Source: Microbacterium laevaniformans
GTDB taxonomy: Bacteria; Actinomycetota; Actinomycetes; Actinomycetales; Microbacteriaceae
DNA: 64,000 nt
Assembly (NCBI RefSeq): GCF_016907555.1
Contig: NZ_JAFBCE010000001.1
Coordinates: 248,001-312,000 of the forward strand
Direction of reading: 5' to 3'
The notes beneath the pieces were generated by a model, which worked only from the letters and a program-made list of their open reading frames with translations, was not told the DNA's origin and did not search any database. Position 1 is the first letter of the stretch. Each line of letters starts with the position of its first letter. A program made the position numbers and the translations under genes. Of this stretch, positions 40,377-41,785 are shown in pieces.

Positions 40377-40589
40377 ATGGGGCTGGATGACATCGTGAAT
40401 CAAGGCAAGCAGTTCCTGGAGCAGAACAAGGACAAGATCGACGAGGTGATCCACTCGGACAAGGCCGAGGAGGTCAGCGACAGCGTCCTCGACGTGGCCG
40501 CCGACGTCGTGAAGAAGGTCGCGCCAGACCAGTTCGACGCGAAGGTCGGCGAGGTCCGCGACCAGGTCGACGGCGCGATCGGCACGTGA
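40377..40589 (+). CDS. Small helical protein, Rv0909/MT0933-like antitoxin family candidate
   Basis: Protein of 70 residues, highly charged and helical: MGLDDIVNQGKQFLEQNKDK, 'SDSVLDVAADVVKKVAPDQFDAKVGEVRDQVDGAIGT'. Length, the 'MG-[LF]-x-D' start and the Lys/Asp-rich helices resemble the MT0933/Rv0909-type putative antitoxins that occur alone in actinobacteria. AGGAGG lies 9 bases before the ATG. No toxin gene is adjacent, so a TA role is doubtful. It could equally be a small stress protein. Confidence 0.7.
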   Translation: MGLDDIVNQGKQFLEQNKDKIDEVIHSDKAEEVSDSVLDVAADVVKKVAPDQFDAKVGEVRDQVDGAIGT

Positions 40590-40646: not shown

Positions 40647-40675
40647 TTGACGCTGGGTCGTGCACCCTCTAGCGT
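40647..40675 (+). promoter_or_regulatory. Strong sigma-70-type promoter of an orphan transcript
   Basis: TTGACG (40647-40652), exactly 17 bases, TAGCGT (40670-40675), with A-rich sequence just upstream (cgaaaacgagatcaaaacc). It is the best −35/−10 pair in the window. The predicted start is near 40682. Confidence 0.8.
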
Positions 40676-40681
40676 CAGCAG

Positions 40682-41094
40682 TGGTCAGTACGACGCCGGG
40701 GGGCTGAAAACCGACTGAATGAACTGTGGGGGTTCGTTCCGCCGCATCGCGCAGAGTCTGCGCGTGTGCACGGTGACAGGTTGTGGGGGCATGAGCGCTG
40801 CTCGTGGATGTATGGGGGATGCTGTTCGGGGGACCCGAGCGCACTCGTCGCGGTTCGGCGTTTCCGACCGCGTCTCCCTGGCTCCTGCCGGCGATGGACG
40901 ATTCGCCGTCGATGTGGATGCCGGGGGGCGTCCTCATCGCGGTCGTCCGCGCCTGCGCGTCGTTCTGAACGCTGCGCCATCGCGTCGGGGGGACGCGGCG
41001 CGCTGAGACCCGGGGCGCGCGGTCGGGGGGTCGCGCGTCCCGCGGAGACCGGGAGGGGTGGGCTTTCCCCAAGGGCCCACCCCTCCCCTTTTTG
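40682..41094 (+). ncRNA. Candidate orphan RNA with eight G-runs
   Basis: The unit between the promoter at 40647 and the terminator at 41051 is about 410 nt. It carries runs of five or six Gs at 40698, 40728, 40785, 40814, 40828, 40923, 40987 and 41025. I do not find tmRNA, RNase P, SRP or 6S signatures. An open frame at 40719-41006 (95 codons) exists, but its third-position GC is clearly lower than in the neighbours and it has no Shine-Dalgarno sequence. A noncoding RNA, or a short-peptide mRNA, is more likely. Confidence 0.5.
41051..41094 (+). terminator. Rho-independent terminator of the orphan transcript
   Basis: A 13-bp stem pairs GGGAGGGGTGGGC (41051-41063) with 41075-41087, then C and five Ts (41089-41093). 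It separates the orphan unit from the S10 promoter. Confidence 0.88.
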
Positions 41095-41476: not shown

Positions 41477-41785
41477 ATGGCGGGACAGAAGATCCGCATT
41501 CGCCTGAAGTCGTATGACCACGAGGTCATCGACACGTCGGCGCGCAAGATCGTCGACACGGTGACCCGCGCAGGCGCCACCGTTGTGGGCCCCGTGCCCC
41601 TTCCGACCGAGAAGAACGTCGTGTGCGTCATCCGGTCGCCCCACAAGTACAAGGACAGCCGCGAGCACTTCGAGATGCGCACCCACAAGCGCCTGATCGA
41701 CATCATCGACCCGACGCCCAAGGCCGTCGACTCGCTGATGCGTCTCGACCTCCCGGCCGACGTCAACATCGAGATCAAGCTCTGA
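41477..41785 (+). CDS. rpsJ: 30S ribosomal protein S10
   Basis: S10 (NusE), 102 residues, a 30S head protein also involved in transcription antitermination. Typical sequence: [41 protein letters not shown] 41477 gives the standard MAGQKIRI start. The ribosome-binding site is weak (GAGAGTGAG). First gene of the S10-spc operon. Confidence 0.98.

Follow-up and report, generated by a model that had tools for sequence, protein, structure and literature searches.

The window analysed here, a stretch of 64,000 nucleotides from the 3.03 Mb genome of Microbacterium laevaniformans (G000), carries what is best read as a stand-alone RNA; judged from the signals in the DNA, it would begin near a promoter and run for about 410 nt to a terminator that caps it. 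It lies between tuf and a small MT0933-like gene on one side and rpsJ on the other, and the slot is laid out as follows:

40377..40589, + strand: MT0933-like small gene (PF14013; Pfam E 3.6e-07), the upstream neighbour, which recurs in relatives and marks the slot there
40647..40675, + strand: promoter TTGACG-N17-TAGCGT, kept in relatives and in giant-gene leaders
40680..40790, + strand: G-loop leader, with G-runs at 40698, 40728 and 40785; its homologue is the 5' UTR of a giant gene for a surface protein in G018, a related Microbacterium
40791..41006, + strand: 71-codon frame (MSAARGCMGD...), with G-runs at 40814, 40828, 40923 and 40987; start position equivalent to the giant-gene start; probably untranslated
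41007..41050, + strand: 3' hairpin with a G6 loop (run at 41025), a predicted fold; 93% identity to G081
41051..41092, + strand: intrinsic terminator, 16-bp stem and T-run; 100% identity to G081, with a homologue behind the G018 giant gene
41477..41785, + strand: rpsJ, the downstream neighbour and other end of the slot, assigned from sequence

The promoter consists of TTGACG (40647-40652), a 17-nt spacer and TAGCGT (40670-40675); it falls below an E. coli-style 9-of-12 threshold, but when both strands of the 64-kb window are scanned for TTGACN-N16-18-TANNNT it is the sole match. The terminator, a stem of 16 pairs at 41051-41087 followed by CTTTTTG, is the strongest within the 6-kb region scanned. 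Upstream of it lie exactly eight runs of five or six Gs, at the positions listed above, against 0.3 expected by chance per 340 nt and at most three in any 340-nt stretch of the window that starts outside the unit. A preliminary description of this DNA had named the promoter, the strong terminator and the eight G-runs, had observed that several runs follow TGT or GTC, and had found no RNA family to match; all these points stand, TGT preceding the runs at 40728 and 40785 and GTC those at 40987 and 41025, while Rfam release 15 gives no match in the window at gathering thresholds and chance-level matches only in a relaxed search. The RNA is predicted to fold more stably than shuffled sequences, with z -4.1 for the whole unit and z -2.9 without the terminator, and five of the eight G-runs are mostly unpaired in the predicted ensemble, with P(unpaired) of 0.52-0.83 against 0.26 for the average G.

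Close versions of the unit occur in Microbacterium sp. oral taxon 186 F0373 (G080), M. hominis NBRC 15708 (G081), G189 and Microbacterium sp. VKM Ac-2870; G082 has a more distant version, in which the promoter is the same and TGGGG occurs four times. Among the 99 genomes searched, rpsJ was located in 92; the named genome records that share both the leader and its setting all belong to Microbacterium, and the conserved leader string is absent from viral contigs. Two pattern matches outside the genus were set aside as apparent chance hits, their surroundings being different. Between the window and G081, identity is 91% in the leader, 83% in the 71-codon frame, 93% in the 3' hairpin and 100% in the terminator, as compared with 59-70% in the non-coding flanks, upstream of the promoter and downstream of the terminator. 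In an alignment of four species the 44 G-run columns are all invariant, whereas 82 of the 328 remaining columns vary (Fisher p 1e-5, or 5e-4 when set against other G columns). The best explanation of this pattern is that the unit is under selection and appears to be kept for its G-loops rather than for a protein.

In G018 the same promoter is followed by a leader homologous to that of the unit (71% over about 150 nt, E 2.8e-11), and at the position equivalent to the window ATG at 40791 begins a gene of 3,371 codons, whose product combines SpaA-like, DUF5979, DUF11 and isopeptide-forming fimbrial domains with an LPXTG anchor, as in sortase-anchored proteins. The terminator behind this giant gene shares 86% identity over 37 nt with that of the window, so that unit and gene have both ends in common and little between; after the window leader a large secreted protein gene is absent, and only the 71-codon frame precedes the terminator. 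Given this shared promoter, leader, start position and terminator, the unit resembles a leader followed almost at once by its terminator, next to no gene intervening, and on these alignments it is homologous to the 5' leader and terminator of a giant surface-protein gene in the same slot; the label “orphan”, which it had been given at first, no longer fits. Descent may have run either way, the gene having been lost here or gained in G018.

A search with the N-terminus of the G018 protein led to further large secreted proteins, several of them encoded between tuf and rpsJ. Eight further giant-gene leaders could be delimited in this slot in six genomes (two genes each in G028 and G074, one each in G049, G052, G087 and G095), all with TTGAC-type promoters and with 2-4 UGGGG motifs each 5' of the start codon, and it is to such G-loop leaders that the window unit is related. 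Giant surface-protein genes recur in the tuf-rpsJ slot of Microbacterium, a hot spot for them; the largest have about 3,450 codons, and in some slots several stand in succession (L022:2199-12314, L109, L117, L121-L123, L125, L129, L130). Inspection by eye of four of their leaders (L123, L125, L129, L130) showed, just upstream of the ribosome-binding site, a CACCCU able to base-pair with the AGGGUG there, and a GUGC...GCAC upstream that would compete for it, a switch-like arrangement.

Twelve other Microbacterium genomes have a different RNA in the tuf-rpsJ slot, about 290 nt long, in which GGGG loops and C-rich loops are accompanied by a strong hairpin resembling a terminator (L032-L036, L038-L041, L043-L045; alignment A1). 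Its predicted structure comprises 98 pairs, 29 of which show at least one two-sided compensatory change, and in the paired columns GU outnumbers AC by 95 to 11, which favours this strand; a possible GTG frame is shifted in two members, and the members scanned have no match in Rfam. When this second solo family, the nine giant-gene leaders and the window unit are taken together (22 sequences), there are 53 occurrences of TGGGGA and 69 of TGGGG, where dinucleotide shuffles give 2.8 and 13.8. A single covariance model for both solo families was tried and abandoned, that of the second family not matching the window unit; their common origin is plausible, on the basis of slot and motif only. In G077 (L041:1500-3608) the second solo RNA adjoins two frames that, judged by eye, resemble those of exopolysaccharide clusters, one sugar-transferase-like and the other large and membrane-anchored.

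The 6C RNA is widespread across Actinobacteria. The preliminary description had proposed that a G-run RNA might pair with its C-rich loops and had advised a search for it in the same genome; such an RNA is indeed found in G000, at C1:2058422-2058514 (L145), scoring 40.7 bits, under the Rfam cut-off of 47, and E 5.6e-19 with a genus-specific model that drew on 17 members of the genus, this very copy among them. That model finds 6C in all 25 genomes tested, with one weak second match in G005; Microbacterium 6C mostly scores below the Rfam cut-off, which 2 of 99 genomes exceed. In the four genomes with window-type units (G080, G000, G189 and G081; L144-L147) both 6C loops are C5, and in the giant-gene genomes looked at, G018 excepted, both are C6.

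The proposal of pairing held up in so far as the cell encodes 6C and seven sites of the window unit are complementary over at least 6 nt to the two loops of its own 6C, as against at most five sites in other stretches of the same size. It fared less well in specificity: the pairing energy per site is no better with the own 6C (-12.1 kcal/mol) than with the 6C of other groups (-12.2 kcal/mol), so that coevolution is not supported and group-specific pairing of each unit with its own 6C is not seen; G-runs can, moreover, pair with any C-run. A third C-rich segment behind 6C (CUCCUCCCC) was dropped as a pairing partner, since it sits past the second of the C-loop hairpins, apparently the terminator of 6C. 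Clusters of TGGGG elsewhere in G000 numbered 6, against 21 for a reversed control pattern, and no trans leaders were found in this way.

This complementarity, together with precedents from other bacteria, leads us to read the giant-gene leaders as 6C targets and the solo unit as a decoy. In Mycobacterium abscessus, 6C/B11 represses by pairing of its C-loops with G-tracts in 5' UTRs, such as that of eccB4, as supported by restoring mutations (PMC10470900), and in M. marinum loop mutants and MS2 pull-down support the same C-loop/G-tract pairing for LOS genes (PMC12395582); the 6C targets that we found described in the literature are mycobacterial. These targets resemble the Microbacterium leaders in having 5' UTR G-tracts near the ribosome-binding site that are complementary to the 6C C-loops, but the Microbacterium leaders carry 2-8 G-runs each, and no sizeable gene follows the window unit. 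In Helicobacter pylori, too, the sRNA RepG targets a G-repeat in an mRNA leader, that of tlpB (PMC8295292), though this is a single repeat of variable length whereas the Microbacterium unit has many fixed G-loops. A parallel for the solo form is RosA of Bacillus subtilis, a G-rich stand-alone RNA with its own promoter and terminator, which sponges the C-rich sRNAs RoxS and FsrA; several of its G-rich stretches are complementary to C-rich parts of these sRNAs (PMC8216469). The window unit likewise has both transcription signals and, at several sites, complementarity to an sRNA that the same cell encodes, and its 71-codon frame is not coding-like, yet intact; it differs in belonging to another phylum, in its unrelated sequence, in its proposed partner, 6C, and in having eight G-runs and kinship to an mRNA leader where RosA has three G-rich regions.

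We therefore tentatively favour, with a probability of about 0.4, a leader-related, stand-alone G-loop RNA that is kept for its G-loops and acts as a decoy, or sponge, for 6C. The G-loops of the unit would base-pair with C-rich loops in the cell's own 6C; giant-gene leaders would be multi-site 6C targets, on which such pairing would let 6C repress translation, and the solo form would titrate 6C. That this pairing takes place in the cell and that the unit titrates 6C is plausible. More doubtful is the wider scheme, a system not yet described, in which multi-copy UGGGG-loop leaders would put the giant genes of the slot under a single sRNA, 6C, and in which a leader would at least twice have become a stand-alone titrating RNA.

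The unit might instead be a short mRNA, in which the G-loop leader would control a 71-aa protein that derives from the giant gene by shortening and would remain under cis regulation by a C-loop sRNA or another factor. The ATG at 40791 is preceded by GUGGGGG and corresponds to the start of the giant gene; start, stop and phase of the frame are kept in four species, the sole indel being of 3 nt; and in some species pairs third codon positions change more often (8, 8 and 17). Yet GC3 is 0.63 in this frame, against 0.89-0.94 in tuf, the MT0933-like gene and rplC, dN/dS ranges from 0.35 to as much as 0.95, the product has no recognised domain (Pfam and NCBIfam give no match), and identity to G081 is higher in the untranslated parts than in the frame. 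GC3 and dN/dS speak against an ordinary protein-coding gene, a candidate we rejected, and the 71-codon frame probably is not translated, which leaves the short mRNA an unlikely reading, if one to be taken seriously. A second frame, of 95 aa from 40719, is present, and its ATG is replaced by ACG in G081 and G189. The first account of the locus had seen no good reading frame, though it mentioned the one at 40719.

The enrichment of TGGGGA across the 22 leaders and solo RNAs implies more context than pairing with a C-run needs, and this specificity may betray a protein that recognises UGGGG(A), which the solo RNA would titrate. We consider such an arrangement quite unlikely, as it lacks a candidate protein and in the window unit the motif is UGGGGG, not UGGGGA. 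CsrB-type titrating RNAs are long, with many similar hairpin loops containing G, as is the window unit, but its core is GGGG and not GGA, and CsrA (PF02599) has no match in G000 or in 11 others of the 14 genomes, its absence from G000 ruling out CsrA titration. Still less probable is a mere remnant, in which the giant gene was deleted and its leader, start and terminator are decaying without function; such an origin would account for a unit that has both ends of the G018 gene and little in between, but not for its retention in five species-level genomes, with G-runs and terminator invariant while the flanks diverge. A G-quadruplex RNA, raised in the preliminary description on the strength of eight G5-6 runs on one strand, we regard as scarcely credible: the unit contains no canonical motif (four G-tracts with loops of 1-7 nt), and the sole lenient one sits in the terminator stem.

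A conserved G-loop RNA in genomes with 6C, and leaders of a similar kind before giant adhesin-like genes, offer a concrete, testable set of candidate targets for 6C and a possible antagonist. If the decoy reading is true, this would also be a clear case of an mRNA leader turned into, or derived from, a free-standing regulatory RNA.
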